From Propionibacteriaceae bacterium (lineage in GTDB: Bacteria; Actinomycetota; Actinomycetes; Propionibacteriales; Propionibacteriaceae), in the NCBI GenBank assembly GCA_009778725.1, contig WRFP01000002.1, forward strand, positions 1-43,733: 43,733 nt of DNA. The letters run 5' to 3'. A program made the position numbers and the translations under genes. This document shows, in pieces, positions 3,880 through 41,882 of the stretch (positions are counted from its first letter, which is position 1; each line of letters starts with the position of its first letter). Below the pieces are notes generated by a model that saw only the letters and a program-made list of their open reading frames with translations, searched no databases and was not told where the DNA came from.

Positions 3880-3928
3880 GTTGCTGGCGTGTTTAGTTGC
3901 CTTCTTGGCACCGAAGGCGGCGAATGGC

Positions 3929-12821: not shown

Positions 12822-13988
12822 TCAGTCGCGCCCGTAAAGGTCGCGCGTGTATACCTTGTCGGCAACATCTGCGAGTTCGTCAGATCGGCGATTCGTGACG
12901 ATGATGTCACTACGACGCTTGAATTCGGGCAAGTCACCCACCATCTCGTACTCCACAACCCGGCCTTTCGCCACTGAGGGTTCGTACACGATAACTTCCA
13001 CACCGGAGGCCTGCAATCTGTCGATCACTCCAAAGACCGAAGATGACCGAAAATTGTCCGAACCAGCTTTCATGATCAACCGATGAATCCCGACAACCTT
13101 TGGCTGTCGCTTCAAGATGTCGGACGCGATGAAGTCCTGCCGTGTCTCATTGGCCCGGACCACAGCAGTAATCATGTCTTGCGGGATCCCCGCATAATTG
13201 GCCAATAATTGCTTGGTATCTTTGGGCAGGCAGTATCCCCCGTAACCGAACGACGGATTGTTGTAGTGGTCTCCGATACGTGGGTCCAGACCGATTCCAG
13301 CAATGATGGCACGCGCGTCGAGGCCTTGGGAGATGGCATACGTGTCAATCTCATTGAAATAAGCAACACGCAAAGCTAAGTAGGAATTGGCGAACAACTT
13401 CACCGCTTCTGCCTCACGAGACCCAATCAACAACACTGGTACGTCAGGCGAGGCGCATCCCTGGACGAGGATGTCCGCCAAAGCCTGCCCCCTGGGTCCA
13501 CTGTCGCCAACGATGACACGGCTCGGATTCAGAGAATCGTGCAGGGCCCTCCCCTCCCGCAAGAATTCGGGAACAAACAGGATCTGGTCAGTGCCAAAGC
13601 GTTGCCTCATGTTTTCGGTGAATCCCACCGGAACTGTTGACCTGATGGCAATAGATGTATTCGGGTTCTCAGTGAGAGTCGCAGCAATGCATTCCTCTAC
13701 TGACGAGGTGTCAAAGCAGTTCGTATTCGGATCGTAGTCGGTTGGGGTCGCAATCAGTGTCCACTCCGCCCCCCTGACCGCGTCCTCCAACACGGTTGTC
13801 GCCTCTAAAGACAATTGTGTGTCCGCCATGTATTCGTGGATTTCGGATTCGGGCAGGATCGACTCCTGCCGATTGATCCTGTCAACTTTCGTCTCATCGA
13901 TATCCACCACTGTCACATGGTGATGGCGAGCCAGAACCAAGGCATTCGCGAATCCGACATAACCGGCGCCGATTACTGCAATGTTCAT
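12822..13988 (-). CDS. ugd: UDP-glucose 6-dehydrogenase family
   Basis: MNIAVIGAGYVGFANALVLARHHHVTVVDIDETKVDRIN..., TPTDYDPNTNCFDTSSVE, GFGYGGYCLPKDTKQL. Confidence 0.93.
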   Translation of the reverse strand: MNIAVIGAGYVGFANALVLARHHHVTVVDIDETKVDRINRQESILPESEIHEYMADTQLSLEATTVLEDAVRGAEWTLIATPTDYDPNTNCFDTSSVEECIAATLTENPNTSIAIRSTVPVGFTENMRQRFGTDQILFVPEFLREGRALHDSLNPSRVIVGDSGPRGQALADILVQGCASPDVPVLLIGSREAEAVKLFANSYLALRVAYFNEIDTYAISQGLDARAIIAGIGLDPRIGDHYNNPSFGYGGYCLPKDTKQLLANYAGIPQDMITAVVRANETRQDFIASDILKRQPKVVGIHRLIMKAGSDNFRSSSVFGVIDRLQASGVEVIVYEPSVAKGRVVEYEMVGDLPEFKRRSDIIVTNRRSDELADVADKVYTRDLYGRD

Positions 13989-14033: not shown

Positions 14034-14804
14034 TTAGTCGGTCATGTTCTCATAAAACGCGATGGCATCGTCGATGGGCCCATCGTACATAAGGCTCCCT
14101 TGTTCAATCACTAACCCTCTGTCACAGAATTGCTTGGCAGAACCCAGCGAGTGTGTGACAAATAACAAGGTTAAATTATGTTTGACCAAAATCTCTCTCA
14201 TCCTCGCCAGACTCTTCTTGTGGAAAGCTCGGTCTCCCACTGACAAGACCTCGTCCAAGATGAGAATGTCTGGATCAAGAGAACTTGCGAAGGCAAATCC
14301 AAGCCGTGCTCGCATTCCCGATGAGTACGTCCGAAGAGGCTGATCAATGTAGGGCCCAAGTTCGGCAAACTCGACAATGTCGTCCATTCTCTGGTCTATC
14401 TCGGTCTGTGACAAACCCCACAAACGTCCCCTGAGTCTTAAATTCTGCCGCCCCGTCAACTGCGCATCGAAACCAGCGGAGAGATCCAAGAGAGCACTCA
14501 CTCGTCCATGGATCTCAACGAGGCCTGATTCCGGGGCAGTCACACCCGTGATGATCTTGAGAGCGGTGGATTTCCCGGCCCCATTTCTCCCGATCAGAGC
14601 GACTGACTCTCCACGGCGCACCATAAAACTGAGGTCATTGTTGGCTTTGACAGTTTTGAAAGAGACCTTGGGTAGAAAGGCTGACAACAGACGTTTCTGT
14701 TCAGAGCTATACAATCGATATGTCTTTGTGACATGCGAGAATCTGATCGCTGTGATGCTCCTTGTGGCAGCAGTCTGAATATATGTGGCAGGTCTAGATG
14801 ACAT
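14034..14804 (-). CDS. Polysaccharide/teichoic acid ABC exporter, ATP-binding subunit (Wzt/TagH-like)
   Basis: Walker A GRNGAGKSTALKI, signature YSSGMRARLGFA, Walker B DILILDEVLSVGD; start taken at the internal ATG (MSSRPATYIQ) overlapping the permease end; ORF extends to 14921. Confidence 0.9.
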   Translation of the reverse strand: MSSRPATYIQTAATRSITAIRFSHVTKTYRLYSSEQKRLLSAFLPKVSFKTVKANNDLSFMVRRGESVALIGRNGAGKSTALKIITGVTAPESGLVEIHGRVSALLDLSAGFDAQLTGRQNLRLRGRLWGLSQTEIDQRMDDIVEFAELGPYIDQPLRTYSSGMRARLGFAFASSLDPDILILDEVLSVGDRAFHKKSLARMREILVKHNLTLLFVTHSLGSAKQFCDRGLVIEQGSLMYDGPIDDAIAFYENMTD

Positions 14805-15606
14805 CTGCGGTCTCCTTGCCCAATCTGCTCTGAATCCGCAAAGCCAGCAATAGCATAACAATGAAGATCGCCAGGAAAGGAGCATACAAGCCTGGGTGGG
14901 CCCAGACCCAGTACCTGTCACAAATAGCAGCCCTAAATGCCTGGATAAAGAAGGTCACCGGATTGAAAGCCAAGACGATTCTGACCCATGGGACGTTGAT
15001 TCTTGATACATCAAAGAAGACACCCGACAGCCACATCAACGGAACAGACATGACTTTGACAAGGTTGTGAAAATCCTTGCTGATCGCAGATAGGGGAGAT
15101 GCCAGTAAGGACCACACGGTGAATGTGACATGCATGACAACGATGAGAATGGGAATTTGCAGAAGATATATCGAAAATGGTGTTCGCGTGAAGACCATCG
15201 CAATCGACAAGATTCCCAGGGTCAAGACAAATATAATCACCTGGGCCACCGAGAAAAAATTTGAGATCACAGGTAGTGGAAATTGCAGCTTTGTCACAAG
15301 ATAGCTATAACGTCTGTAGACGTTGGACCCCGAGCTGATCATGGTTGACACGTAATTCCAGACAAAGAAGCCAGCAGCCAACCAGACGACGTAGGAAACC
15401 CCGTCGGCCAAGTCTTTGTTCACACGTAGGCCGATCTCAAGTGTGAACCAAAATGCGCACACATATACAATCGGCTTGGCCAGTAGCCAAATCCATCCTA
15501 ACCAGGTTCCATGAATGCTCTTCTTGAGGTCAGTGATAGCAAGGTACCAAATCTGACCACGATACGACCAGTTGTCTCCGATGATACTTCGCAATGTCTG
15601 AAACAC
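14794..15606 (-). CDS. Polysaccharide ABC exporter permease (Wzm/TagG-like)
   Basis: 270 aa hydrophobic protein, DLKKSIHGTWLGWIWLLAKPIVYVCAFWFTLEIGL and further TM segments; adjacent to the ATPase. Confidence 0.88.
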   Translation of the reverse strand: MFQTLRSIIGDNWSYRGQIWYLAITDLKKSIHGTWLGWIWLLAKPIVYVCAFWFTLEIGLRVNKDLADGVSYVVWLAAGFFVWNYVSTMISSGSNVYRRYSYLVTKLQFPLPVISNFFSVAQVIIFVLTLGILSIAMVFTRTPFSIYLLQIPILIVVMHVTFTVWSLLASPLSAISKDFHNLVKVMSVPLMWLSGVFFDVSRINVPWVRIVLAFNPVTFFIQAFRAAICDRYWVWAHPGLYAPFLAIFIVMLLLALRIQSRLGKETADVI

Positions 15607-15977
15607 TACTGTGTTACTCCCGTTTGAGCCCTTGGAACTTCCATGGAGACAGATGAGCCTTTCTCGTGCCTCAATGATTCACTTCACGCCAGGCATCCCA
15701 CTTTCCATCACTTGTCGGGATGCACCAGAGTTCATCCTAATACTGCCACACATGCCAACTCATACACTCTGGTTATCTTGAGTGTCCATCGCAGAGAAAC
15801 CTGGGAAGATTGATTCAGCCAGACATACAGACATCAGAATCCAGTAGAATTTGTCACAACTGCCTGGGTGGATAATCAGAACCATCAGCGACAATGCCAC
15901 CCACTCTTCCCTTTCACGGGGCTAGTACATTTTCGTGTCGACCATCATTGAGTCAGCGACAGTTAGGAGTAAGGCGC

Positions 15978-17666
15978 ATGTGGAAGCGAACAAAAAATTT
16001 CCTTGGTCTTTTCTTGCCAGTTCCCGCCAGGAGCTTTCATCGGCAGGCACGGGCAATGAAAACGAAACACGACCACGATATGCAAGAGATCAAGGACACT
16101 CTCGCAATAATGAGCACTACGTTGGCAGCGCTTCAGGCAACTGTTGAGTCAACACGCCAGGTGGCGGCGGACACACAGGGAATCGTGCGCGAAGGCCAAG
16201 GCGAGATCAGTAACCTTTCAGCTCGTTCGATGACCATCCAGGATAGGACAAATGTCCTCTGCAAGTCAGTCGACGGGGTTGAGACCACGGTAGAAAGCAT
16301 CCAAGTCCAAGTCGGAACCATCAAAACAGTCACCGACGCTATCCATAACAGCGTCGACCACACCCACGAAGCCATCGAAACCCTCCAAGACACCGCAGCC
16401 ACCACCGACACCAAAACCACCACACTGCACGAATCAGTTACCGGACTCGAAACCACCCTCGACTCCATCCAAGGTCAAGTCGGAAACATTAATACAGTCG
16501 CCAACGCCATTCACAACAGCGTCGACGAGACCCATGAAGCCATCGAAACCCTCCAAGACACCGCAGCCACCACCGACACCAAAACCACCACACTGCATGA
16601 ATCTGTCACCGGACTCGAAGCCACCCTCGACGCCATCCAAGGCCAAGTCGGAAACATTAATACAGTCGCCAACGCCATTCACAACAGCGTCGACCACACC
16701 CACGAAGCCATCGAAACCCTCCAAGACACCGCAGCCACCACCGACACCAAAACCACCACACTCACCGAATCCGTCGCCGGACTCGAAACCACCCTCGACG
16801 CCATCCAAGGCCAAGTCGGAACCATCAAAACAGCCACCGACGCTATCCATAACAGCGTCGACCACACCCACGAAGCCATCGAAACCCTCCAAGACACCGC
16901 AGCCACCACCGACACCAAAACCACCACACTCACCGAATCCGTCGCCGGACTCGAAACCACTGTCGGAACCCTTGACCAGCTTGTCCATACAACACGCAAC
17001 AGTGTTGACGAGGTCGTGTGGTCGAGCATTTTCCAAAATACGATACAAAAGTGTGATTGGTTGACAGATAAGAATTTTTCACCTGGGCGTTGGGCCGCAG
17101 GTTACCCCTTCCTATACATTCTTTTTCGCACATTACGGGACGCTGGACCGACGAGAATACTGGAGCTAGGCCTAGGCGAAACCACAAGGCTCATCTCTCA
17201 GTACTGTAGGGCGAACCCAAATGTGGAGCATCTCGTTGTTGAGAGCGATTCCACCTGGGTTGACTTCTTCCGCAAGTCTTTCGATGTGCCGGCCAACACT
17301 GAGATAATCCGTCTTCCACTGGCCTATCGCCCATACAAAACAACAGACTCAATCCGTGTGTATGAAGGATTCCATGATCATCTGGCCCACGGAGAATATG
17401 ACCTCATCTGTATCGACGGGCCAATGGGAGCCGACATGCGGTCGTACGACAGAATTGACTCTTTGTCCTTGCTTCCTGACCATCTTGCAGGATCTTTCAC
17501 CATCATTGTCGATGACTATAATCGGGCAACAGAACAAAACATGGTCTCAGAATTGCTGTCCATTCTCAATGATGCAGGGATACCCTATGTAAAGGGTATT
17601 TACAGGGGCAGTAAACATACCCTCGTGATCTGTAGCGAAGACAACCACTTTCTCACGTCGCTTTGA
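15978..17666 (+). CDS. Coiled-coil repeat protein with C-terminal class I methyltransferase-like domain
   Basis: ORF 15894..17666; ATG 15978 preceded by TAGGAG. Four 56-aa repeats of IHNSVD[H/E]THEAIETLQDTAATTDTKTTTL..., then RILELGLGETTRLISQYC...VEHLVVESD...YDLICIDGP...SFTIIVDDYNR. Confidence 0.75.
   Translation: MWKRTKNFLGLFLPVPARSFHRQARAMKTKHDHDMQEIKDTLAIMSTTLAALQATVESTRQVAADTQGIVREGQGEISNLSARSMTIQDRTNVLCKSVDGVETTVESIQVQVGTIKTVTDAIHNSVDHTHEAIETLQDTAATTDTKTTTLHESVTGLETTLDSIQGQVGNINTVANAIHNSVDETHEAIETLQDTAATTDTKTTTLHESVTGLEATLDAIQGQVGNINTVANAIHNSVDHTHEAIETLQDTAATTDTKTTTLTESVAGLETTLDAIQGQVGTIKTATDAIHNSVDHTHEAIETLQDTAATTDTKTTTLTESVAGLETTVGTLDQLVHTTRNSVDEVVWSSIFQNTIQKCDWLTDKNFSPGRWAAGYPFLYILFRTLRDAGPTRILELGLGETTRLISQYCRANPNVEHLVVESDSTWVDFFRKSFDVPANTEIIRLPLAYRPYKTTDSIRVYEGFHDHLAHGEYDLICIDGPMGADMRSYDRIDSLSLLPDHLAGSFTIIVDDYNRATEQNMVSELLSILNDAGIPYVKGIYRGSKHTLVICSEDNHFLTSL
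16344..17015 (+). repeat. Four tandem 168-bp (56-codon) repeats
   Basis: Unit starts (CA[T/C]AACAGCGTCGA...) at 16344, 16512, 16680 and 16848; long stretches identical at DNA level; last unit diverges at its end. Confidence 0.95.
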
Positions 17667-17752: not shown

Positions 17753-20700
17753 TTGTTTGTCAGGCCTCTACTGCGAAAAGGGAGAATTGTCTTGCCTGAA
17801 GGAACTGTTGTAGATCAGAAGAATCGCTGGAGAATACCCGAATCGATATCAAATCCGTCAGGACAGGCTGATTCTGCTTCAAATCAATTGACTTGTACTG
17901 TCTCGATCATTGTTCCTGTGTATAACGATAGTAACTCCGTGGGCCGGGCCCTACAGTCGTGTCTGAACCAGAGTCTGCGTGACATTGAGGTCATCTGTGT
18001 TGATGACGGTTCCACTGACCAGACTCCTGACGTTCTCGCACAGTTCACGCAGAAAGACCCGCGTTTCAGAGTAATCACCCATTCGCGACGAAGAACGGCT
18101 TTCCAGGCCCGTAGAACTGGTGTTCTCGCTGCCCGGGGGGATTACATCATGTTTCTGGACAGTGATGACGTTCTGGACCCAGTGGCTTGTGAGAAGGTCA
18201 ACCGTGTGGCCCAGATCGACAATCCTGATGTGATCCACTTCGGAGTTTCAGTCATTGATACCATCACCAGAACCTTGATCAAACCGGGGCCAAACGTACA
18301 GCCACGAAAAGAAGTCTTATACGGCTCTGCCATTTTCCGGGATTTTTTTGGATCATTCCAACCAAACGTCTCTGTTCCCCTGTGGGACAAGGCATACCAC
18401 CATGTTCTTGCTCTTGAGGCGTTTAGAGAGCAATCAGCAGAACGAGAGGTACCACAGGCCAGCGATATATGCATGTCAGTCATTCTCCTGGCGTCGGCGA
18501 ATTCATATCGCAGCATTCCTGATGCACTGTATACGTGTTTTCTTCGGTCGCGTGAGTTAGAAGGACAGATGATCACCGACGCCGAATACGAGGACACCCT
18601 TAACACCCGGGCATCTTATGAAGTCATCACCGAATTCGTGACAGGGGCCCACAGTCCAACACCTGATGTACATGAATTCTTGTTTCACATGCGTTCATGC
18701 TTCATCCATCACAGCCTGAAATCCTTACTTCAACTTGCGACCCCAGATGCCACGGCCCTTAAGCGCCTTTTCGACCTGTGGCCATTCGAAGAGGTTCTGG
18801 ACGTGCTAGAAAGGAGATTCTCCTCAAGACCAGAAGCCCTTTTCCCCATGCTTCGCGGTTTCAAATACCGCAACGAGAGGCGAACTCGGAAGGTTCAAAC
18901 TATTGGCTTGTTTGTCGACACACTTGGGTACGGAGGTGTTCAACGTGCAATCGCAATGCAGGCCAGTCTTCTTTCCAGAACTGGGTATTCGGTCATCATA
19001 CTTACTAGCGGTAAGAAGTCAGACTTTCCCTACGCCATTCCCAAGACTGTCAAGATCAGGTCGATCTCGCCCCCCAGCGATTCAAAGCTCCAAACCGATA
19101 CAGCGGGTATTCTTCATGAGCTAGCTCAAACCTTGAGAGAGGAAAGAGTAGATGTCATCATCAATCATTCAAACTATCGAGACAACCTTCTCTTTTTCTC
19201 ACTTGGACTAGCAGTTCTTCCAGTCCAAACAGTGATGACCGTCCATAATTTTTGCCTTCGGTCCATGATGGAGTTTAACAAACGTTTTGCTAACTACCAC
19301 CGGATCCTAGCTTTGTACGATGCAGTAACAGCCCTGTCACCAGTTGATGTCCTCTTTTGGCAGACAGCGGGAGTGCCGAATGTTCATTTGGTTGCCAATC
19401 CAATCGAAGCAATACTCGAGGCTCATGAAACCGTGGAAGATACCCCTCCAGATGACGATACCACGTTCACACCAGTCGACGTTCTCTGGATTGGGCGTTT
19501 ACAAGAACGAACCAAGAGTGTCAGTGAAGTCATCCGAGTCTTTGCGGAACTGCGGAAGCTTCGTCCCCAAGCGAGCCTCCGGATCATCGGCCCAGAACAA
19601 GATCGCGGTATCCGGGGGCGACTTCATCGTCTGGCCGATGAACTCCAGGTCAGCGATGCCATAGAGTTTATGCCTGCAACCGATCAGCCCATTGCCGCTT
19701 TACAGGCTGCTTCTGTCATGCTGCAAACATCCCAGGTAGAGGGGTTTGGGTACTCGTTAGTTGAAGCAATGGCGGCACGTCGGCCGGTGGTCATGTATGA
19801 CTTACCCTATCTGACGATTCCTCAAGGAAATCCAGCGATCATCACTGTCCCTTGGGGACGACGTGATCTCTGTGCGAGGGAAATCCTTGAATTGCTCAAT
19901 GATGATGATAAGCGTGCCAGCATTGCCGAAGAGGGATACAACGACCTCCGTCTTCGCTTCAGCGATGCCTCATTGTTGGACTCCTATCAAAAACTCATCG
20001 TATCTCTGGCTCCATCCCAACCAGGACCGACACCGGATACAGCCCCAACCTTCGATGCCGCTTCCACACTAGTAAGTGAGGCGCTCCGCTTATTTAACAT
20101 CGTCTATCGGCGCGAAACCCGTTCTCAAGAACAAAGTGAAAAGGCCCGGGCTTCTCTCAACGCCAAGGTGGAACAACTGGAGACTGAGAAACGTCGCCTG
20201 CAAGACGCTCTACGCCCGGTGCTCGCGCCGAGCCACCGCTCACGTATCAAACGCTTGATGGCCACAGTCACGATACACGAACCAACTTCTGACACCACAG
20301 CAATGGGCTTGGGTATTTGGCCCTTGTGGCAACGACAGATGCTAACATGGCGACCAGTTCAGGTTTCACCATTCACCGACCTCTCACCCGATGACCACTC
20401 GTATCCATACGCTTGTTGGATGCGCGACGAGGGCTTGCTTCTGAGTTCCGAAAACCGATTTGAAGGTTCAACCTTGGTAACCCGCAGGGATGCATTGGTA
20501 GCATTGTGGATTTTGGCTGGACGACCTGAGATAGAGGCGGAAGACCCCGTGCCATTTGAGGATGTGCCCATGAACGATCCTCACGTATCAGCGTTTCTCT
20601 GGGCCACCGAGCGACGAATCGTCAGGATGCTGGCGACCACGTCAAGTCAACTCCTCAGGCCTGACCTACCATTGCGACGCGCTCCACAAGCTGCCTTTCT

Positions 20701-20974
20701 CCACAGAGCGGCAGGGAGTCCTGCGTACGTTGCTCCTGACGACAGCCCCTTCACAGATGTCCCGGCTGATCACGAATTCTATCGATCAATCATGTGGTGT
20801 GTCCTTCAAGGGGTCATGTCGGGCCAGCGTCAAGACAAGACTATTTTGTTCTCTCCTGCTTCGGTGTCAGACCGAAGCAGCTTTGCGGAAAGTCTTTTCA
20901 GTTTCGCGATTGGACCCTTAGCTGTTGAACAACAGGACCAACCAGTGGCTGCCCCGGTTCTAGGCAAGGAGTGA
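17753..20974 (+). CDS. Bifunctional glycosyltransferase (GT2 + GT4) with C-terminal SLH-like region
   Basis: 1073 aa, TTG start; GT2: VSIIVPVYNDSNSVGRALQSCLNQSLRDIEVICVDDGSTDQT...FLDSDD; GT4: VDVLWIGRLQERTKSVSEVIRVF...SQVEGFGYSLVEAMAARRPVV; SLH-like: SPFTDVPADHEFYRSIMWCVLQGVMSG. Confidence 0.88.
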   Translation: MFVRPLLRKGRIVLPEGTVVDQKNRWRIPESISNPSGQADSASNQLTCTVSIIVPVYNDSNSVGRALQSCLNQSLRDIEVICVDDGSTDQTPDVLAQFTQKDPRFRVITHSRRRTAFQARRTGVLAARGDYIMFLDSDDVLDPVACEKVNRVAQIDNPDVIHFGVSVIDTITRTLIKPGPNVQPRKEVLYGSAIFRDFFGSFQPNVSVPLWDKAYHHVLALEAFREQSAEREVPQASDICMSVILLASANSYRSIPDALYTCFLRSRELEGQMITDAEYEDTLNTRASYEVITEFVTGAHSPTPDVHEFLFHMRSCFIHHSLKSLLQLATPDATALKRLFDLWPFEEVLDVLERRFSSRPEALFPMLRGFKYRNERRTRKVQTIGLFVDTLGYGGVQRAIAMQASLLSRTGYSVIILTSGKKSDFPYAIPKTVKIRSISPPSDSKLQTDTAGILHELAQTLREERVDVIINHSNYRDNLLFFSLGLAVLPVQTVMTVHNFCLRSMMEFNKRFANYHRILALYDAVTALSPVDVLFWQTAGVPNVHLVANPIEAILEAHETVEDTPPDDDTTFTPVDVLWIGRLQERTKSVSEVIRVFAELRKLRPQASLRIIGPEQDRGIRGRLHRLADELQVSDAIEFMPATDQPIAALQAASVMLQTSQVEGFGYSLVEAMAARRPVVMYDLPYLTIPQGNPAIITVPWGRRDLCAREILELLNDDDKRASIAEEGYNDLRLRFSDASLLDSYQKLIVSLAPSQPGPTPDTAPTFDAASTLVSEALRLFNIVYRRETRSQEQSEKARASLNAKVEQLETEKRRLQDALRPVLAPSHRSRIKRLMATVTIHEPTSDTTAMGLGIWPLWQRQMLTWRPVQVSPFTDLSPDDHSYPYACWMRDEGLLLSSENRFEGSTLVTRRDALVALWILAGRPEIEAEDPVPFEDVPMNDPHVSAFLWATERRIVRMLATTSSQLLRPDLPLRRAPQAAFLHRAAGSPAYVAPDDSPFTDVPADHEFYRSIMWCVLQGVMSGQRQDKTILFSPASVSDRSSFAESLFSFAIGPLAVEQQDQPVAAPVLGKE

Positions 20975-20980: not shown

Positions 20981-22762
20981 ATGCTGTGGGATCCTCGCAC
21001 GGTTGATGACAACCTTGAAGAGGTAGGACGTGATAAATGGCTGAAATTCGGTCAACAGATTCGATCCACACGGATACGTGACATCCTCACAAGGAAAGCT
21101 ACTCTTGGGGTGGTTCGTCGATGGAGACAATTGGTGCAACAGGTCGAGAACGTCACATCGGGGACCATGGAGGCGATGGAGACATGGGCTCAATGGGATG
21201 AAGAAGTCCTCAGCATATTGGCTCAAGTAGTCATTTCCCAACGGATAGTCCCGACTGATCTCGAAGATGGACTTGCCATCTACAGAGCCATTGAAATCAC
21301 CAGTGGGACAACCGTTCTCGGGCAAGATGACCGACTGGCCATTTGTGATGCGCTATCCGAGTTGGGTAGTCACCAGGAACTGCTCCAGACTGTATCAAGG
21401 CTCAACATCGCAGACTTCAATCACCGACAAGCTGGACTCTTGACAGCTAATGCCTTCAATTTCGAGTCTGGTCTCGATGAATTGTTCTGGCTGAAGTCAG
21501 TCAATACTGTCTTAGGTGAGGATGAACTGGCTGATTTGGTACTTGATCCAAATGGACAACCAGTTCTTGATCGGCTGTCCTGCAAGGCAGTCCCTGGTTC
21601 TGTTCAGGGACCCTTGGTGACTGTCATTGTGCCAACCCATAACCCCGGGCTTGAGATTTTCACTGCAGTACGGTCTTTGGTACTTCAAACATGGAGAAAC
21701 CTTGAGATTCTGATCATGGATGATGCATCTGATCCAGAATACGAATCGAGAATTCAAAGCCTAGAGAATCTGGATCCTCGCATTCGCGTGATTCACTCAT
21801 CTCCCAATCGGGGATCCTACTATGTCCGAAATCTTGCGGTTTCAAGGTATGCGCATGGCGAGTTTGTTACCATCCACGATGATGATGATTGGAGCCATGC
21901 GGACAAGATTGCCTTTCAAGTCTCCTATCTGCTCGAATCGGGACTTGCTGCGGACACATGCCACACCATACGTGTCACAAACAGCTGTCGATTTGTGCGC
22001 GTTGCCGAGCCCCTCGTCTATAGCAGGATGTCCTATGCCTCGCTGATGGTCCGGCGTTCAGTGTTTCGAAGTATTGGTTACTGGCAACCGTTGTGGACGA
22101 ACGCAGATCGAGAGTTTTGGCTGCGAATCGAGTCCTGGCAAGGGCGTCGAATCCCTGTGCTCGGTAAGACTCCATGGCTCTTTCAACGTGTCCGAGAAAA
22201 CTCGTTGACCTTCAATGAAATCTCCCGCGGTTATATTCTCAGCAGTCGTCGGTGGCATGAATGGCTGTCTGTTGCACTCCACTCCCGCTCTCAAATCTCC
22301 GGTAGGCGAGTATTCGAAGGTGTGGGCGTGAGCTCTCAACCATCGCGGGCGTCCTATGCATTACAAAAACAATTGCCCGGAACCATCGAACCAAAGATTG
22401 ACGATCTGGTCATAACTCACTGGGGCAAGGAAAACGACATGATTGAGGATGCAATCAAGAAAGTTAATGAATTGCGAACTCTCGGGCATGTTGTTGGCTT
22501 GATGCATGTAGATTCACCACGCTGGGGGATTGCTGCGGGGATTACAGACAGAGTTGCAAGACTAGTTGAGCAGGAAGGAATCCATCTCATTGCCGTCGAA
22601 GATGAATTGTCGGTCAAGACAGCATGGGTCCTTGATCCAGGAGGTTGTTGGTTGGCAGAATCACCTCAACCAAAACTCCATGCGGAACATGTCATCTGTC
22701 CTTGTGGCAATGGTGGAGGCCAATGCTACCTCAGGTATCAGACCGAGACAATACATGATTAA
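20981..22762 (+). CDS. Glycosyltransferase family 2
   Basis: 593 aa; VTVIVPTHNPGLEIFTAVRSLVLQTWRNLEILIMDDASDPEYE...FVTIHDDDDWSH. Confidence 0.87.
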   Translation: MLWDPRTVDDNLEEVGRDKWLKFGQQIRSTRIRDILTRKATLGVVRRWRQLVQQVENVTSGTMEAMETWAQWDEEVLSILAQVVISQRIVPTDLEDGLAIYRAIEITSGTTVLGQDDRLAICDALSELGSHQELLQTVSRLNIADFNHRQAGLLTANAFNFESGLDELFWLKSVNTVLGEDELADLVLDPNGQPVLDRLSCKAVPGSVQGPLVTVIVPTHNPGLEIFTAVRSLVLQTWRNLEILIMDDASDPEYESRIQSLENLDPRIRVIHSSPNRGSYYVRNLAVSRYAHGEFVTIHDDDDWSHADKIAFQVSYLLESGLAADTCHTIRVTNSCRFVRVAEPLVYSRMSYASLMVRRSVFRSIGYWQPLWTNADREFWLRIESWQGRRIPVLGKTPWLFQRVRENSLTFNEISRGYILSSRRWHEWLSVALHSRSQISGRRVFEGVGVSSQPSRASYALQKQLPGTIEPKIDDLVITHWGKENDMIEDAIKKVNELRTLGHVVGLMHVDSPRWGIAAGITDRVARLVEQEGIHLIAVEDELSVKTAWVLDPGGCWLAESPQPKLHAEHVICPCGNGGGQCYLRYQTETIHD

Positions 22763-22818
22763 ACGCGACCGTCAGTCGCTCCATTGAGACGGCTTTACAG
22801 AATGGGGATTCTAGGGTG

Positions 22819-24690
22819 ATGATTAAAGAATCGGACAGCACGGTGTCCATTGCTCTCATTTGTGACGCGGGTTATGTGATTCCCACAGCGGTCACAATAT
22901 CATCCATCATTGCCAACCGATCTCAGAATTCCAGTTACGAGATTTTTATTGTCACGTCAGGAATCAGCGAGAGTGATATCAGCGAGTTCCAGAAGTTTGA
23001 AACTACCGGAGTTCGCATTGAAGTAATCACGACGAATCTGGGAGATTTGGAAACTCTCCACACGAAGGATGAGTCAGCCGTGTGCGTTGCCACACCTGCT
23101 GCCCTCCTCAAGTTCCGGCTCCCAGACCTCATACCCAGGGATAAGCTCCTTTACTTGGACGGGGACATCGTGGTGAACTCTGATCTGTCTTCGTTATTTG
23201 ACTATGACATTGACGGCTACTACCTGGCGGCAGTTCCTGATAGCGGAAGTCTCTATTTCAAGCACAAATACCTTGAACTGGTCGACACCTATTTCAATAC
23301 CGGTGTCATGTTGCTTAACCTTGAGCGAATGCGAATCGACAATTGTGCTGACACCTTGATTCGCACCAAAGCCGAGATACACGACTCAATGCTCATGGAT
23401 CAAAATGTGTTCAATCTCGTCTTTAAATCGGGTGTTCTGTACCTGCCAATTCGTTTCAACCTGCTGTATGTCAATTTGCATCGATCAAGAAAAAACTACA
23501 CGATTGACGACATCAATCTGCTCTACCACACAACTTATACTGACTTGGACGAAATCCGGTCCGACGCTGTTATTATTCACTATTCATCTCGAAGCAAGCC
23601 GTGGACATTCGGAAATGTTCCTGCAGGAGATCTTTGGTATAGCTATTTTATCAAGATGAGGAAGGTTGCCTTTCGTACACGCTACTCATTCAAGCATGTG
23701 TCGCGTGACTCTCAGACTGGAGTCTCTGTCATTCTCCCGGTATGCAACGCTGAACACTACCTTGACGAAACCCTCGCCAGCATCCGGAATCAATCATACG
23801 AGGATATCGAGATAATATGCGTTGATGCCGGCTCAACCGATGGATCCGCGGAAATCCTGCACGAGGCGCAGGAGGCTGATCATCGAATCGTTGTGATTCC
23901 TCATTCCAACCAGGATCTGAACGCTGCTCGCAATGTTGGGTTGGCATGTGCATCGGGGACATATGTTTACTTCTGCGACACTGACAATCTGCTTATGGCA
24001 GATGCATTAGAGATTGGCTATTCGACCATGGTTGAAAGTTGGTTACAGCTGTGTTTCTTTTCTGGTGGCAGTCAACCCAACGATGAACCTTCTACCCAAG
24101 GAGATCCTCAACACAAGAAACAGCATGCAAAATGGGCTCAGTATCCGGGTATCCATGATGGCTATGAGCTTTACAGATGGATGGAGGAGCACAACACATT
24201 TCTCCCGGAACCCTCACTCCAGATGATCGGAAGGGACCTGTTGATCAAGTATGATTTGTGGTTCAGAGAGAGAAGGGCCCAAGTTGATGAGGTTTTCTGC
24301 TTCGAAGCTCTGCTCAGAGCCGGAAGAGCCGCCACCATTCCAGATGTTCTGGTCCAGCGGAGGGCTCAGAAGGTATCTCATGAAACGACTAGCGATTCCT
24401 CCTTGGCCTTTCATGATTCATTCACAAGTGTTGTAGCGATGCTTTCATTGATAGGGGCGGTGGAACCGCGTGAGCCACTGCCAAAGGGTTCCAAGGACAG
24501 AATTAGTCGCCTCTTCAACAGTGCTTTCGTCAGTTACCGCGAATTACCACCCGGCAAGAGAAAGATTCCATTTTTCGAAAGTCCTGCCGAGTCAGCCCTG
24601 GCCGATCTGCTGTACCGACAGATTCAAAGTCGGACGGTTGCCTTTGAGGAATTACAGCAGGCTCGGCAGGACCATGTAGAAGTGTCTTGA
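22819..24690 (+). CDS. Bifunctional glycosyltransferase (GT8 N-terminal + GT2 C-terminal)
   Basis: N-term VSIALICDAGYVIPTAVTISSI...LLYLDGDIVVNSDL (GT8 DxD); C-term VSVILPVCNAEHYLDETLASIRNQSYEDIEIICVDAGSTDGS (GT2). Confidence 0.88.
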   Translation: MIKESDSTVSIALICDAGYVIPTAVTISSIIANRSQNSSYEIFIVTSGISESDISEFQKFETTGVRIEVITTNLGDLETLHTKDESAVCVATPAALLKFRLPDLIPRDKLLYLDGDIVVNSDLSSLFDYDIDGYYLAAVPDSGSLYFKHKYLELVDTYFNTGVMLLNLERMRIDNCADTLIRTKAEIHDSMLMDQNVFNLVFKSGVLYLPIRFNLLYVNLHRSRKNYTIDDINLLYHTTYTDLDEIRSDAVIIHYSSRSKPWTFGNVPAGDLWYSYFIKMRKVAFRTRYSFKHVSRDSQTGVSVILPVCNAEHYLDETLASIRNQSYEDIEIICVDAGSTDGSAEILHEAQEADHRIVVIPHSNQDLNAARNVGLACASGTYVYFCDTDNLLMADALEIGYSTMVESWLQLCFFSGGSQPNDEPSTQGDPQHKKQHAKWAQYPGIHDGYELYRWMEEHNTFLPEPSLQMIGRDLLIKYDLWFRERRAQVDEVFCFEALLRAGRAATIPDVLVQRRAQKVSHETTSDSSLAFHDSFTSVVAMLSLIGAVEPREPLPKGSKDRISRLFNSAFVSYRELPPGKRKIPFFESPAESALADLLYRQIQSRTVAFEELQQARQDHVEVS

Positions 24691-25030: not shown

Positions 25031-25873
25031 ATGAGTGAAAAGGTTCGTTCAATCAAGGACATGAAACGTCTGTCCAAGAATCGGATCATTGGGGAAATTC
25101 TCTTGGACGATAGTGTCATCGAATTTCAGGGAGAAGGAAACACACTGATTGCCCTTCCTCCAGCGGGACGAGGAGTCGCATCGGAATGGAACACAACACT
25201 ACGATCTGCGTCGATCAAATTCCTGGGCAACCAGTCCATAGTCATGCTCGCACCGTCGAAATGGGCCTATTGCATTGATGTTCGAATATTTTCAGAATGT
25301 TCGTTATGCTGCGGGGACAATTTTTTCAATCCCCGTGGAGGAGCTATGTCATTTACTGTTGGTGAACATTCTAATGTTCTGATGGGCTCCGGAGGGAGAG
25401 TAGCATCGAGAGTTCAGTTAGTAACCTCAGATCAACATCCACTCTATGACATGACAAGTATGACGAGAATCAATCCAAGCCGCAGTGTACTGGTTGGCGA
25501 CAAAGTTTGGTTAGGAAAAGACTCCTTGATCATGAAAGGGACACAACTCGGAACGGGAAGCACCGTGGCAGCCAGAGCTCTTGTGGCTGGAAAGCGAGTT
25601 CCCAGCTACTCATTGTGGGGTGGTGTGCCAGCTCAACAGCTCCGTGAGCATGTGTTCAGTCTCGGATTATACGTAGATTCACTAACACCACAAGAGACCG
25701 AAAGAGTCGCCACCCAAGATTCCAACTATGTTTTCTCCAAATTTCATGAACAACGAACGCTCAACTTTGACGAAGTCGACGGTCAGATCAGAAGTCTTAC
25801 CGATATTGACGAAAAGATATCATTTTTGATGCAATTTTTTGACCGCGGAGCTATTGATCGTTGGTTCATTTGA
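25031..25873 (+). CDS. Left-handed beta-helix acyltransferase (capsular O-acetyltransferase-like)
   Basis: 280 aa; VLVGDKVWLGKDSLIMKGTQLGTGSTVAARALVAGKRVPSYSLWGGVPAQQLRE hexapeptide/acetyltransferase signature. Confidence 0.82.
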   Translation: MSEKVRSIKDMKRLSKNRIIGEILLDDSVIEFQGEGNTLIALPPAGRGVASEWNTTLRSASIKFLGNQSIVMLAPSKWAYCIDVRIFSECSLCCGDNFFNPRGGAMSFTVGEHSNVLMGSGGRVASRVQLVTSDQHPLYDMTSMTRINPSRSVLVGDKVWLGKDSLIMKGTQLGTGSTVAARALVAGKRVPSYSLWGGVPAQQLREHVFSLGLYVDSLTPQETERVATQDSNYVFSKFHEQRTLNFDEVDGQIRSLTDIDEKISFLMQFFDRGAIDRWFI

Positions 25874-26251: not shown

Positions 26252-27520
26252 ATGCAGGAGCATCTATCGATTAGTGTCATTATTCCAGCACTCAATGTTG
26301 CACCCTGGTTGCCACGTTGCTTGGAATCAGTATTGTCACAACGAGATGTGTCCCTGGAAGTCCTTCTGATAGATGACGGAAGTCTCGATGCCACAGCAGA
26401 GATCGCTACCGGTTTCCAAGCCGTCGATCCTCGTCTCCGAGTGCTCCGCACTCCCAGAGTTGGGGCTGGCGCGGCCCGCAACGTCGGCACATGCAAAGCA
26501 CAAGGCACCTATCTGGCTTTTGTTGATGCGGATGACAGTATCCCCGAGAATACATATGGGTCTTTGCTCCGAGTGGCATTGCAGACACAGGCTGATGTGA
26601 CAATCGGTCGCTACCTGAGGGTTGTCGACACTGTGGTGAGCGAACCTCAACCCTCCCATTTTCCCGCGCCGGGTCAGTTGCTCACGCTCCGTGATTTCCC
26701 TGACCTGCTCAGACAACGACAGTGCTGGAATCGACTGGTTCGTCGTGACTTCTGGCTGGAACACAATCTTCAGTTCAGTACGTCACGCAGGGCGAATGAT
26801 ATTCTCGCGATGACACGCATGTTACTGACGGCTGAACGAGTGGCCACGGTCGACGACATTGTTTATCACTATCACAGCCGCCCGGGAGATACGTCTATCA
26901 CGTCACTTCAAGGCCACGTGGACTTCTTCACAGACTACCTGCGCGAGGAGATCCAATGCGCTGAACTCTGTATGGGAACGCCAGACAGGGGAATCAAGAA
27001 ATCGTACGCCTTGACCGTACTGAGGAGGGACCTGCCGAAGCATCTCCAGTCACTGCTGGCCACCTACGATGCCCTCGACCCCGCAACCAGTGGAGCACTG
27101 CAAAACGACCTGTCCCTGTTTCTCAGCCTCGTTGCTGATGCCCCGATGGCACGTCCGGCAGCAGCATGTGCCTTCGCCGTTGAGACAGCGAGCAATGGAC
27201 AGTGGTCGACGTGTCAGAGGATCATCGCGGACCTGTGGAACCAGGAACCCGCCGAACCATCGGTGTACGCGTCTGGTCTGTGTTCGTGTCAGGATTCTCC
27301 CCACTTGCACCCATGGGTCTACACACACATTTTCACTGAGAAAGTGCTGCGGCGCTTGGCCACTCTGCCATCTGAGAGTCTGGCCACCGAAGTACGCGAT
27401 CATGCTCAGGTTTACCAATTGTGCCTTCAAAACTATTCGTCTTCGCTCGATCTGGATGACGGGGAAAAACGTGTCCTAGCCGAAATAAGGAAGGTGGGCA
27501 CATCCTCCGAGCCAGCATGA
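26252..27520 (+). CDS. Glycosyltransferase family 2
   Basis: ISVIIPALNVAPWLPRCLESVLSQRDVSLEVLLIDDGSLDATAEIA...GAGAARNVGTCKAQGTYLAFVDADDS. Confidence 0.9.
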   Translation: MQEHLSISVIIPALNVAPWLPRCLESVLSQRDVSLEVLLIDDGSLDATAEIATGFQAVDPRLRVLRTPRVGAGAARNVGTCKAQGTYLAFVDADDSIPENTYGSLLRVALQTQADVTIGRYLRVVDTVVSEPQPSHFPAPGQLLTLRDFPDLLRQRQCWNRLVRRDFWLEHNLQFSTSRRANDILAMTRMLLTAERVATVDDIVYHYHSRPGDTSITSLQGHVDFFTDYLREEIQCAELCMGTPDRGIKKSYALTVLRRDLPKHLQSLLATYDALDPATSGALQNDLSLFLSLVADAPMARPAAACAFAVETASNGQWSTCQRIIADLWNQEPAEPSVYASGLCSCQDSPHLHPWVYTHIFTEKVLRRLATLPSESLATEVRDHAQVYQLCLQNYSSSLDLDDGEKRVLAEIRKVGTSSEPA

Positions 27521-27680: not shown

Positions 27681-29006
27681 GTGAAAGAGATCTTGGTGAG
27701 AGGAGGCCGCCCTCCTCACGTGCCCATGTCACCTGAAGCTTCTCTGGCCAAGAACGGGTGGGGCGTCTTCGGGGGCAATATTGGCAATACTCTCTTCTTG
27801 AGTTCTGTCTTCCGAACACTCAACACCGCTGAAACTCAGGCCGTGGTGGATTGTTTGTTTCCAGAGAAAGGTGTCGCGGACATCGACCAGATGGCGGCAG
27901 AGATCAATGAACGATTCTCTGCTTGGGTGATACCTCTCGCGAACGCATTCCGTCCTGGATGGGAGCGCGCCCTTGGGAACATGACGCGTCTCGTGCGACG
28001 TCTGAAGATCCCATGCGTGGTTGTGGGAGTCGGAATTCAAAGTCCGCTCGGCACCGCTGTGATCAACAACGATCGCACGTGTGATTCGGCAAAAAAGTTC
28101 GCCACAGCCGTCCTCGACCATTCGGAGACGATCGGAGTGAGGGGTGAATTGTCCCAGCAGTTCCTCGTCAACCTGGGGATTCCCAAAGACTCGGTCGATG
28201 TCATCGGATGCCCGTCACTGTTCAATAATCCCGGAGATCTGCAGGTGGTCCGAAAGGTCGACAGGATCGGTAAGACCGATCCGGTGGCCATCAACATCAC
28301 GCCATCGAAACCGCCATTCGATCCGTCGCTCCTCGGTCCACTCACGGAAACCTACCCCAACATGATCTATGTGGCACAGCAATACGAAGAGCTACGACTC
28401 TTGTTGTGGGGCATTGACTGGACCACCACCTACCCTGACCTTCCCGTCCATTCTCAGCACCCGATGTATCAACAAGACAGGATTCGATTCTTCCTGGATC
28501 CCCCCCGGTGGCGCGCATTCATGAGCAACCAGGTCTTTGCCTTCGGCAGCCGACTCCACGGCAACATCGCCGCCGTTTCCGCCGGAACCCCGGCTTTGCT
28601 CATTGCCCATGATTCCCGAACGTCTGAAGTAGCCCAGTACCACTCCTTGCCATATCTCACCGTCCATGAGAGCCCGTCAGACTCGATCATCGACAGATTC
28701 TATGACAAGGCTGATTTCACCAAGTTCAACCAACGCCATCCTCAGCTTTTCCAGCACTACGTCGATTTCCTGGAGAAGAATGGCTTGTCGCACATCTTCC
28801 AGGAGGGAAACGCAAACCCTCAGTACGACGCCCTGCTCGCCTCTGCACAATACCCTGAGCCAGTCGGTGTCCTCGAAGCACATCTGAATCCAGCCGAACA
28901 GCAACTGCTGCGAAAGCTGGCGTGGCTGAGAAAAGACCAGGCCACCGACAAGCAACGAGCATCACGGGGTTACGACTTCGGATTCGTCCCTAAACAGGTC
29001 GCCTGA
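27681..29006 (+). CDS. Polysaccharide pyruvyltransferase family protein
   Basis: GGNIGNTLFLSSVF..., VVGVGIQSPLG, IGVRGELSQQFLVNLGIPKDSVDVIGCPSLF, FGSRLHGNIAAVSAGTPALLIAHDSRTSEVAQYHSLPYL. Confidence 0.85.
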   Translation: MKEILVRGGRPPHVPMSPEASLAKNGWGVFGGNIGNTLFLSSVFRTLNTAETQAVVDCLFPEKGVADIDQMAAEINERFSAWVIPLANAFRPGWERALGNMTRLVRRLKIPCVVVGVGIQSPLGTAVINNDRTCDSAKKFATAVLDHSETIGVRGELSQQFLVNLGIPKDSVDVIGCPSLFNNPGDLQVVRKVDRIGKTDPVAINITPSKPPFDPSLLGPLTETYPNMIYVAQQYEELRLLLWGIDWTTTYPDLPVHSQHPMYQQDRIRFFLDPPRWRAFMSNQVFAFGSRLHGNIAAVSAGTPALLIAHDSRTSEVAQYHSLPYLTVHESPSDSIIDRFYDKADFTKFNQRHPQLFQHYVDFLEKNGLSHIFQEGNANPQYDALLASAQYPEPVGVLEAHLNPAEQQLLRKLAWLRKDQATDKQRASRGYDFGFVPKQVA

Positions 29007-29108: not shown

Positions 29109-32100
29109 TTACCCCAACAGATGCCGAACAAGCCGCTCCCCTGCGTGTCCGTCTTCCAGGGGAAGAAAGTCTTTGATGAATGCGTCTCTGTTGGGCTGAT
29201 AGTCCTGGTGGATCCTGTCCAGAGAACCCAGCACGTCCACCAATTCCTCGAGTGTTCGACACCAAGGCCCGGGGGCTGTGCCTTCGTACGGAATAAGCGA
29301 TCCGCGTTCCTGACCCATATATTGGTCCAGATCAGGGACGAAGAAGACCATTGGATTGTTGGTCAGCGCATAGTCGAACCGCAATGACGAGTAGTCCAGA
29401 ACAGCCACATCTGAAGCCAGACACAACTCCTCAACCCGTGGATAGCTGGTCACATCAATGACCCGTGCTCCTCTCTCGCGAACATCGCCACCACGCCCCT
29501 CCATCGGATGACCCCGCATCAAGACCACATAGTCAGGAGTGAGGCGAGCGGCCAGCTCCGCCGGGCTCAACACGTCCGACGTCCGAGCTGTGGTCTCATT
29601 GTCGGACAGCCAGTCCCGGAACGTTGGCGCGTACAACACAGCTATCGCAGAGTCAGAGATCCCCAGCCAAGACCGCACCCGCATACGGATGTCAGTGCGA
29701 TCCGGGTCAAAGTACAGATCGTTTCTCGGGTAACCGATCTCGAGCATCGTATAGGCGCCAGGGAACGTATATTCCAGAAGTGGCGTGGCGTAGGGAGCCG
29801 GAGAAATCAGATAATCCCACTCGTTTTGCCTTTCCAGGTACGAGCGCACACGAAGAGAGGAGAATCCAGCTCCCGGCCAGTACGGTACACCTGCCAGTTT
29901 GAAGGGATAGCCGTGAAAGGTTTCCACGATCACCTGCCCTGGGTTCTTCCGATACCAATCTGGTTGATGGACATTCCATACCGAGAACTTGGAGGTCCCA
30001 AGAGCTTCATACCATTCGTGACTTCCTATCACCACCGGGATTCCCCCATCGGGTATAGCCACCGACAAATCCTGGACAGCCCATAGAACCCGCAGGTCGA
30101 GGCCCATCCTCAGGATCGCTTGGTGGATTCCGTACTGATTGCAGGTAGCCACCTCTCCGAAGTAGCTGCGCAACAAAATGGTATCTTCGCGAAGACCTGA
30201 CGTCCTCATGGTGGGCACCTGAGTACGACCAACACTCAGCGATCGTTTCTCTTGCTCAGACGGCTGAAGGGGAGGGGCGATGACGACTTGCCCACGCCTG
30301 GCCGGGGTCAGCTCAAATCGAGCGTTGCACTGACGTGACTCAAACTGAATCGGGACCCGTGGACCGATTTGCTGGGCGAAAACCAAGCATTCAGCACAAT
30401 CCTCGCGCACACCTGATCCATCGTCGGAATCAAGCGACGCTGCTCCGAGCATGTACTCTCCGCGAGGCAGCACACGTTCACCGGCACCCCACAGATCAGC
30501 TTCCAAGGGCAACACAGCACTCCACTGACTGCCTTCCCACGACACCGGAGCTGCCAGCCGCGTCTTCTTGTTGAAGAGACAAGCTTCGACTCGTCGATGG
30601 GCAGAGATGGCTCCACCCGACAAACACACACTGCTCGCCGTGAATACCACGTCATCCACTCTCAGGCGCAAGTCTTGAAGGAACCAGACTGACATATTGC
30701 CAGCAGTACTCCGGGCGAGGGCAAAACCGGTCTCCCCCACCGCCAGGGGAATCTTGTTGAACGGTTGCGGCCAACAAATGGCGAAGTCACCCGAGCCTGT
30801 ACGAACACGTACCAACAAATCTTTCCGTATATCCACCATGGACTCGCGGGGGGGCAACTTCAGGTAAAAGTCCCAGCGATTCTCACCTTGGATTCCCAAT
30901 TCTGCTACGGCTACCGGATGCTCAGCATCGTGCTCAGGGTAAATCACAACCTGATCAGGGGTGGCCTTCCGTAACGGATGCCCGAGCATGGTGCCAGTCA
31001 GCCCATCGCTCTGCACCTCAATATCGCACACAGAGAACTCTGGCTGCGTGACTTCGACCAGGACATCCTCGAAGTGACGGGGAGGTCTGACCCTGGCTTG
31101 GATTCCTGAGTCCGTGACACCCACACCGGCGTGGAGAGCCGAACTCCAGCGGTTCATTTTCTGGATTCGGGCTGTCTGCCTCAGGGACCCACATGTGACC
31201 GTCACTTCCATGGCCCACGTCACGCTTCGGACTCCATGGTTGAGCATGTCGGGACAGAGGACTACTCGGAATCCGCTCTTCGAATAGTCGTTGGACTGAT
31301 GAGACGACCGAACATTCGCCTCGGGTATTTCACATTGTTCGACTTCGAGATGTTGACGATTTGAACCACTGACAAGGTCGACTTCGATTCTTGCATCGTT
31401 GTCTGCCAGATCAAGACACGTGATATAGGCCCAACCCGTGATCGTGAGAGAACTATGATCTGGCGCCCAGGCCGCACCACGCAGTGACGCTTCGACTCTG
31501 ATGTCCGTGCTGGACACAGCCAGCACCTCGACAGGGTAACAGACGTCTTCATCATCCCAGAAGGGTACTTCGGCAATGAGAGTGTCATCCCTCCACGTCG
31601 TTCGCATGACATCAGCATTCATTCCGTCTTGATAAAGGTAGTCACGGACTGCGTCACGCCGGTCGATCAAGACCAACCATTCCAAGCCGGCAACTCGTGG
31701 TGTCACCAGCTTCCAATCGTCGGTCGGCATGCCAGCCGTGAACTCCCGCAAGCCGTCGCGTAACATGTCCCAATACTCATCCGACACGGCATCGGGATCG
31801 GTCATGGAATGCCGGAAGTCATTGTTGAGAAACTGCAACAACCGTACTCGTGCCAAAGCTTCAGACCCGAACGCTCTCAGGACAGACCTGCTTGCACGAA
31901 AGGCCCGCAACCTGTCGTTGAGGTCTTCTACCGTATGCACTTGCTGCGTGATGGAAGACCTGCTCTCCCTGGCGCGCCATCCATACACTTGATCCGACAA
32001 GACATCGAATTGCTTCGCCTGCGCATATGCTTCGGCAGTCACCTCTTGGTCTTCGTACAACACCCCCTCAGGCATGTTCAGATGTGCGTCTCGCCAGAAA

Positions 32101-36202: not shown

Positions 36203-36343
36203 TGCGCACCTTTCTGCCGCTCGTCCAACGTGGAACACCGAGCACATCCCTCACAGGAGGGAGAACACCCAGAATATCGTTCTGTCTCAACCTGGCCAAC
36301 ACAGGTTCTCGCATGAGTAGGGTGTGGTTTGTACACTTGAGGG

Positions 36344-36946
36344 ATGAAGAAGTTGAAAAGGTTTGCTCTCCCATGGGTAGTTGTCTTCGCGGGTCTGTCC
36401 CTTGCTCTGACCGGTTGTGGGTCGAAGCCATCAGACGAGCCCACGATGCCAGCCACCCCGTCCCAAACCGACGCCTCGGACACAGTTGACCCTTCTGCGA
36501 CAGATCAGACAGCGACAGATCAGACCTCATCAGATCAGACTGAAACGGATCAGACCGCAACCCAGCCAGCCGCTCCTGACTCTGATAACACCACCGATCA
36601 AGATCCCGACGGTGACCTTGTCATTCCGGACGTCCAGCCCAACGTTGACAGTGACTTCTGCCATACGTACATGGCCTATCTCGACACAGGTGGGCCCTAC
36701 TCTCTTCAAGAAGCCGGCGACCAGCTACCCCCGTTCACCCAATCGGATCTCGACTCCTACACCCAGTTGGCAGCCACTGCACCCGACGACATCAAGGCCC
36801 AGGTGGCGACGATGCTCACCTATGGCCAAGAGATGAGCAAAGGTGACTTCACCCACGGCATCGACTACGAAAACTTGCTCGATGGACCTGGCGGGCTGAC
36901 TCTGTACGCCATCGCGTACTGTCAGATAGACATGGGTTCCGCGTAG
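36344..36946 (+). CDS. Putative lipoprotein with TDQT-repeat linker
   Basis: MKKLKRFALPWVVVFAGLSLALTGCGSKPSD (lipobox LTGC), then TDQTATDQTSSDQTETDQTAT pentad repeats. Confidence 0.75.
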   Translation: MKKLKRFALPWVVVFAGLSLALTGCGSKPSDEPTMPATPSQTDASDTVDPSATDQTATDQTSSDQTETDQTATQPAAPDSDNTTDQDPDGDLVIPDVQPNVDSDFCHTYMAYLDTGGPYSLQEAGDQLPPFTQSDLDSYTQLAATAPDDIKAQVATMLTYGQEMSKGDFTHGIDYENLLDGPGGLTLYAIAYCQIDMGSA

Positions 36947-39524: not shown

Positions 39525-39660
39525 AGTTGTACGGTGACCGACCGGTCAGCGTAGAGGCAGAGGAACGTTCAGCAGCCATGAATCAGTGGAGCCGCGCAAA
39601 GGGTTCCTGACAAAGTTCATTCTTGGTACGATTTCTTCCAATATGACGAGGGAGTTGGCA

Positions 39661-41694: not shown

Positions 41695-41882
41695 CCCGGT
41701 ATTTCCGTACGACTGATCTGTCTTCTCATTAAACCTATCTGGCCTGCACGACCTCTATTCGTGTAACTTCTGGTCGTCCATCACCACATGGAACACGGTT
41801 CGCGTTCATAGCAAGGTGATGATCCCGATGTGCTCCAACACCCTCCCGAAATGCCGTGCCACCAGCAATGATGATGATAAAG

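Follow-up and report, generated by a model that had tools for sequence, protein, structure and literature searches.

Gene content of the locus

The window analyzed here is a 43,733-nucleotide stretch of Propionibacteriaceae DNA (contig WRFP01000002.1, positions 1 to 43,733). Among its genes is one that encodes a protein with a long coiled coil followed by a methyltransferase domain. The gene is divergent from a pair of Wzm/Wzt-type exporter genes (14034-15606, opposite strand), just as an initial sequence-only reading had described it, and it lies on the same strand as, and upstream of, a series of glycosyltransferase genes. The genes of the locus are as follows.

12822..13988, minus strand: UDP-glucose 6-dehydrogenase-like enzyme, for UDP-GlcA supply (profile matches)
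14034..14921, minus strand: Wzt/TagH-type ATPase, 295-aa ORF with the ABC domain only (profile matches)
14794..15606, minus strand: Wzm-type ABC permease (ABC2_membrane in Pfam; NF050109, E=6e-7)
15965..15969, plus strand: ribosome-binding site AGGAG, 8 nt ahead of the ATG (read from the sequence)
15978..17666, plus strand: coding sequence of 562 aa with N-terminal segment, long coiled coil and methyltransferase domain (open frame)
17753..20974, plus strand: GT2-GT4 multidomain glycosyltransferase of up to 1073 aa, candidate polymerase (profile matches)
20981..22762, plus strand: GT2 glycosyltransferase, best solved relatives heparosan synthase B (profile and PDB matches)
22816..24690, plus strand: GT8-GT2 glycosyltransferase (profile matches)
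25031..25873, plus strand: hexapeptide-repeat acetyltransferase-like protein (profile matches)
26252..27520, plus strand: GT2 glycosyltransferase (profile matches)
27681..29006, plus strand: polysaccharide pyruvyltransferase (profile matches)
29109..32861, minus strand: GT2 fused to a TarF-like CDP-glycerol glycerophosphotransferase (profile matches)
32981..34765, minus strand: TarF-like CDP-glycerol glycerophosphotransferase (profile matches)
34781..36247, minus strand: polysaccharide pyruvyltransferase (profile matches)
37168-39462, 39586-41694 and 42042-43733, plus strand: three SLH-domain proteins, possible clients of the polymer (profile matches)

The GT2-GT4 gene probably starts at TTG 17792, which follows a GGGAG sequence. 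The GT2 gene at 20981 was considered as a GlfT2-like galactan polymerase, and this assignment was dropped because GlfT2 is not among its solved relatives, which include heparosan synthase B.

The UDP-glucose dehydrogenase, the TarF-like enzymes, two pyruvyltransferases and three SLH proteins are all found in the same 31 kb. Because a pyruvylated secondary cell-wall polymer is the ligand of SLH domains in several Gram-positives (PMC6030368), this gene content suggests that the product of the locus is most plausibly a polymer of this type, to which SLH proteins would be anchored.

Several other elements were observed in the window. Between positions 27681 and 43733, genes for a secondary cell-wall polymer and for the SLH proteins anchored to it look encoded together. 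A perfect (GAG)16.7 run (41882-41931) lies between two of the SLH ORFs, ~110 bp ahead of the one that begins at 42042, and is possibly a phase-variable or spacing element. A 15-bp tandem repeat (ACAGATCAGACAGCA x4.1) is present near the end of the polymer locus (36500-36561). An ORF of 2136 aa (3881-10291) encodes several bacterial Ig-like (Big) domains and has a GC content of 63%, versus about 48-54% in the adjacent polymer genes. No known RNA family was detected in the window, and terminator- and promoter-like sites, which are no more frequent than in shuffled sequence, were left unused.

A tandem array of whole-heptad units

The coding sequence can be divided into three parts, the second of which contains a tandem array of 168-bp units.

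15978..16067, plus strand: residues 1-30, hydrophobic and basic, candidate membrane-surface anchor (inferred; low pLDDT)
16068..17021, plus strand: coiled-coil region, residues 31-348 (heptad analysis and AlphaFold helices)
16176..16343, plus strand: degenerate upstream unit, 46-61% identity with the other units (pairwise unit comparison)
16344..16511, plus strand: unit 1, 168 bp, encoding 56 aa or 8 heptads (TRF and unit comparison)
16512..16679, plus strand: unit 2, 168 bp, 94% identical to unit 1 (TRF and unit comparison)
16680..16847, plus strand: unit 3, 168 bp, 89-90% identical to units 1 and 2 (TRF and unit comparison)
16848..16967, plus strand: unit 4, conserved only across approximately the first 120 bp (TRF and unit comparison)
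17022..17663, plus strand: class I SAM-dependent O-methyltransferase domain, Methyltransf_24-like, with E-x-G-x-G, IDGP and VDD kept (profiles, motifs, model and Foldseek)

Tandem Repeats Finder (TRF) reports an array with a period of 168, 3.9 copies, 92% matches and 0% indels at 16298-16960. Four near-identical units had been proposed from the sequence. Three of them, starting at 16344, 16512 and 16680, are indeed 89-94% identical to one another, but the unit starting at 16848 is near-identical to the others only over approximately its first 120 bp and has 72-79% identity with them across the full 168 bp. Each unit specifies exactly eight heptads, and the 3.5-residue hydrophobic period remains in phase from unit to unit.

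Between intact units, dN/dS is ~0.2-0.5. The units are therefore kept as coding sequence and are not freshly duplicated. The longest exact repeat within the array is 110 bp, and thus ordinary short reads should suffice to assemble the array; extra identical copies may have been lost in the 234-contig draft assembly. A search of the family genomes for the repeat DNA produced nothing except one weak 27-bp match.

An unusually long and regular coiled coil

The coiled coil that had been proposed is borne out by heptad analysis. The register is unbroken to approximately residue 336, giving ~44 heptads (residues ~31-336) with no stutter. The hydrophobic period is 3.50 residues, and in successive 28-residue blocks from residue 29 to 336 its phase stays within 125-150 degrees. 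Positions a and d are L, I, V, M or A in 68 of 88 cases (77%), versus 34 of 220 (15%) at the other positions. Because the core mixes V, I, L and A with Thr, the oligomeric state is not readable from the sequence.

By arithmetic rather than measurement (0.1485 nm per residue), the fully extended coil is ~47 nm long, and each unit accounts for ~8.3 nm. The single-chain AlphaFold model, a weak guide for an oligomeric coil, places helices at residues 31-140, 147-197, 203-252 and 259-358 with pLDDT values mostly of 60-70. Its helix breaks are of low confidence and coincide with Thr-rich parts of several units. A continuous rod is favored by the unbroken register, although hinges at these positions are possible. 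Whole-protein PDB matches to tropomyosin, a tail needle and chemoreceptors were set aside as generic coiled coil, and Pfam matches to eukaryotic coil families were discarded for the same reason.

The N-terminus that precedes the coil reads FLGLFLPVP and then ARSFHRQARAMK. Neither a transmembrane helix nor a two-helix transmembrane (TM) hairpin is visible in this segment, which has a hydrophobic moment of up to 0.79. Its short, hydrophobic and basic character only suggests that it might anchor the protein to the membrane.

The coil could serve mainly as an oligomerization scaffold that recruits glycosyltransferases, comparable to the recruitment of WbdA by the C-terminal part of WbdD, while the substrates of the methyltransferase are lipid-linked intermediates or precursors. 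Multidomain glycosyltransferases are encoded directly downstream on the same strand, and the methyltransferase genes of some distant relatives overlap or directly adjoin a GT2 gene. Nevertheless, a 47-nm coil is far longer than this role needs, and its repeats are near-identical rather than diversified binding sites. We regard a scaffold of this kind as quite unlikely.

The methyltransferase domain

The order of domains is as first described, with the coil at residues 31-348 and the enzyme at residues 349-562. The latter region matches Pfam Methyltransf_24 and plant GXM weakly (E about 0.002), and Methyltransf_24 is matched by all 13 members of our alignment A1. The methyltransferase-like character of the domain, originally recognized from sequence, is supported at the level of fold. 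An AlphaFold model built from 51 sequences has a pLDDT of 86.6 and a pTM of 0.86, and its best PDB matches according to Foldseek are class I O-methyltransferases, several of them metal-bound. The SAM motif is ELGLGE in the window protein versus ECGSGT in its relatives, and the Asp of IDGP and both Asp residues of VDD are invariant across the 51 sequences. These invariant residues resemble the metal site of Mg-dependent O-methyltransferases. Based on fold and context, the likeliest activity is that of a metal-dependent sugar O-methyltransferase.

The domain is a deep branch, with less than about 30% identity to its nearest full-length matches. No close homologue was found in 19 genus, 199 family and 395 class genomes, in a contig pattern scan, or in phages; one Microvirga plasmid protein matched at 27.7% identity. 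In a phylogenetic tree, the domain forms a very long branch (2.89) beside the Microvirga protein, outside the main group of methyltransferases that carry an N-terminal TM hairpin. Because two long branches meet at this point, the placement is unsure.

The length of this branch could mean that the methyltransferase is inactive. Similarly, unequal recombination occurs readily between near-identical tandem units, and the repeat region could be a by-product of this process with little function. Against both possibilities, the 562-codon frame is open, the SAM-binding motif and the invariant Asp residues are kept, the heptad phase is perfect, and dN/dS between units is low. An inactive enzyme or a functionless array is thus hardly to be expected.

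Distant relatives with spacer-held methyltransferases

A profile scan of named genomes identified 77 loci (L075-L151) that encode distant relatives, mostly in Actinomycetota and also in Lysobacteraceae, Chloroflexota, Bacteroidota and others. In 69 of these relatives, at least two hydrophobic N-terminal helices precede a spacer and the methyltransferase domain. The measured spacers of the relatives range from 29 to 232 aa. With the window protein included, 54 of 76 sequences have significant helical hydrophobic periodicity. The window coil, with 318 aa, exceeds every other of the 76 measured spacers in length and far exceeds them in regularity; its 3.5-residue signal power is 51.4, versus 0.9-18.1 for the spacers of the distant relatives. 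These observations suggest that spacers which keep the enzyme away from the membrane recur, whether by descent or by convergence. Because the window methyltransferase branches outside the TM-hairpin group, the shared layout may be convergent.

Genes resembling glycosyltransferases neighbor 35 of the 77 loci, and genes resembling UDP-glucose dehydrogenase neighbor 14. At the thresholds used, only six of the 77 relatives have a recognized Wzm- or Wzt-like gene within about 10 kb. In Lysobacter and Luteimonas, the gene for the relative and a multi-GT2 gene overlap, with Wzt a few kb away, and one Microbacterium locus (L108) combines Wzm/Wzt, homologues of the GT2-GT4 protein (197-325 bits) and the methyltransferase. 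None of four Wzt relatives from the Lysobacteraceae and Microbacterium loci has a carbohydrate-binding domain in Pfam; the Wzt relative in L149, a protein of 547 aa, has a C-terminal extension to which Pfam assigns nothing. The survey suggests that spacer-held methyltransferases are common in actinobacteria and are present in some ABC-exporter loci of Lysobacteraceae.

Two sets of loci deserve mention on their own. In five from Lysobacteraceae (L106, L107, L115, L140 and L145), the methyltransferase gene overlaps a multi-GT2 gene, and Wzt is nearby in four. Where complete, these methyltransferases have the TM hairpin and a spacer of 180-232 aa, and the loci possibly represent an uncharacterized capping system. 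Within the same family as the window, L013 and L057 (genome G178) add a further long-spacer example, a relative that combines hydrophobic helices at its N-terminus with a helical spacer several hundred residues long and a methyltransferase.

Distribution within the genus

Of the 18 other genus genomes searched, 11 contain clear orthologues of the Wzm permease (45-77% identity), and some others give weak matches. The coil-methyltransferase gene and its repeat DNA are found in none of the 18. Thus, the exporter is widespread and the coil-methyltransferase is the variable part. Such variability is as expected for serotype-like loci, and this distribution provides no direct link between the exporter and the enzyme. 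The equivalent position next to Wzm was also examined for a coiled-coil protein in other members of the genus, and the flanks available instead hold gyrB/gyrA, GT52, GT2 or pyruvyltransferase genes. In one genus member (G004), a protein with leucine-rich repeats and SLH domains is encoded near Wzm/Wzt (L183:5008-6978).

Does the coil set polymer length?

In WbdD of E. coli O9a, the terminating enzymes are located ~20 nm away from the membrane, and a shorter coil leads to a shorter O antigen (PMC5082667). By analogy, the window protein would be a cytoplasmic glycan O-methyltransferase positioned at the distal end of an extended, parallel coiled coil, with the N-terminus of the coil probably seated on the membrane or the polymerase complex. 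The polymer would be an ABC-exported wall polymer that probably is pyruvylated and contains glycerol-phosphate and GlcA. A growing lipid-linked chain would be methylated near its nonreducing end only after extending far enough to contact the enzyme some 40-50 nm away. If methylation stops growth, the polymer would acquire a modal length, and each 56-aa unit would add ~8 nm to the distance. We tentatively favor a coil-borne O-methyltransferase that sets polymer length by capping, and are well short of certainty. The heptad register, the methyltransferase fold and the gene context are what the analysis shows; the parallel oligomer, the membrane attachment, the identity of the polymer, the capping and the setting of length are inferred from them.

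The main obstacle to this reading is export. The window Wzt has only its ABC domain, and no C-terminal carbohydrate-binding domain was found on it with Pfam, although such a domain reads the cap in every terminated O-antigen example that PMC11231755 discusses. A ruler that acts by stopping growth alone is possible. Also counting against a length-setting cap are the majority of genus genomes, which keep the permease without the coil-methyltransferase gene, the small number of relatives (six of 77) with a recognized Wzm/Wzt, the low-confidence helix breaks and the lack of a TM anchor.

A real possibility, one that we take seriously without calling it probable, is that the methyltransferase decorates the polymer, either at its end or along its length, and that polymer length instead results from competition between polymerization and export. 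The coil would then provide reach, clustering or attachment to the synthesis complex. Neither the window Wzt nor the four Wzt relatives that were checked have the domain that would read a cap, and caps that are dispensable for export have precedents. Where PMC10629545 cites V. cholerae O1 Ogawa, it is as a case of terminal 2-O-methylation with an exporter that lacks this domain, in which export is unaffected and length is not controlled; the terminal pyruvate of K. pneumoniae O1 is likewise a cap not needed for export (PMC10629545). Because most distant relatives are outside recognized ABC-exporter loci, length control is not clearly the general role of the family. Decoration nonetheless leaves unexplained why the window coil is the extreme among the 76 spacers, and why its units are under purifying selection as whole-heptad blocks.

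Comparison with known chain terminators

The closest systems are WbdD of E. coli O9a and O8, the coiled-coil terminators of Klebsiella O3, O5 and O7, WbbB of O12 and ORF7 of O4. These systems share with the window an enzyme of terminator type (putatively so in the window protein) joined to an extended coiled coil, a glycan locus with an ABC exporter, and multi-glycosyltransferase enzymes (PMC5082667, PMC11231755, PMC3482155). A coiled coil is described as a characteristic marker of the WbdD-type termination strategy (PMC11231755). Among the traits of this type, the window has the extended coil and a Wzm/Wzt exporter in the same locus. A methyltransferase fold is predicted at one end of the coil, which may correspond to the end at which WbdD-type proteins hold the enzyme away from the polymerase, and the hydrophobic, basic N-terminus may correspond to their amphipathic segment that binds membrane or polymerase. 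In contrast, the domain order is reversed, there is no kinase, the coil is about twice as long and is built of near-identical tandem units, and the setting is a lineage with SLH proteins and TarF-like enzymes. No sequence relation to WbdD is demonstrable: WbdD is not among the PDB matches listed for the window domain, the best 60 of 90 for the family profile, or the 50 listed by Foldseek.

The proposal of a WbdD-like ruler in a Gram-positive thus stands in part. The coil, fold, domain order, exporter and glycosyltransferases agree with it, but Wzt lacks the carbohydrate-binding domain, there is no kinase, and no sequence relation to WbdD is demonstrable. We do not class the protein as WbdD type because the carbohydrate-binding domain of Wzt was tested for and is absent, and because the decisive features are experimental. 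The anatomy resembles that of a coiled-coil terminator, and the protein is best read as a coil-borne polymer O-methyltransferase, possibly adding a length-setting cap. Rather unlikely, in our estimate, is the fuller proposal of an independently evolved, domain-reversed counterpart of WbdD, in which recombination among 8-nm, 168-bp units would alter the length of an SLH-anchoring polymer, with no cap-reading domain on the exporter.

Three other groups of enzymes are informative. WsaE of Geobacillus stearothermophilus is also a methyltransferase from a Gram-positive surface-glycan locus with an ABC (Wzm/Wzt) exporter, and adds a 2-O-methyl cap to an S-layer glycan (PMC2943079). Capping by WsaE is independent of length in vitro, and an additional, unknown length factor has been suggested (PMC2943079). 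Unlike the window protein, WsaE has its methyltransferase fused to two glycosyltransferases, and no long coil is described in PMC2943079.

The plant GXM/IRX15 glucuronoxylan methyltransferases (PF21729, TIGR01627) match the window domain weakly (E=0.0015 and 8e-4), with scores below the curated cut-offs and with the other members of alignment A1 unmatched. Given the nearby gene for UDP-GlcA supply, a GlcA-containing substrate is conceivable, as a lead only.

The TM-hairpin Methyltransf_24 proteins likewise have a helical spacer, of variable length, and a C-terminal methyltransferase, with the motifs E-x-G-x-G, VDGP and DD..R..E that are also present in the window protein, and about half of them are near glycosyltransferase-like genes. 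They carry a membrane-side anchor in their hairpin, whereas the window protein lacks the hairpin, and its coil is far longer and keeps a strict heptad pattern.

Gram-negative O antigens provide the established cases of coiled-coil rulers with a chain-ending enzyme. If the length-setting reading is true, the length of a Gram-positive wall polymer would be written in countable DNA units that can be changed and measured directly, and a cap-based ruler could work with an exporter without the known cap-reading domain.
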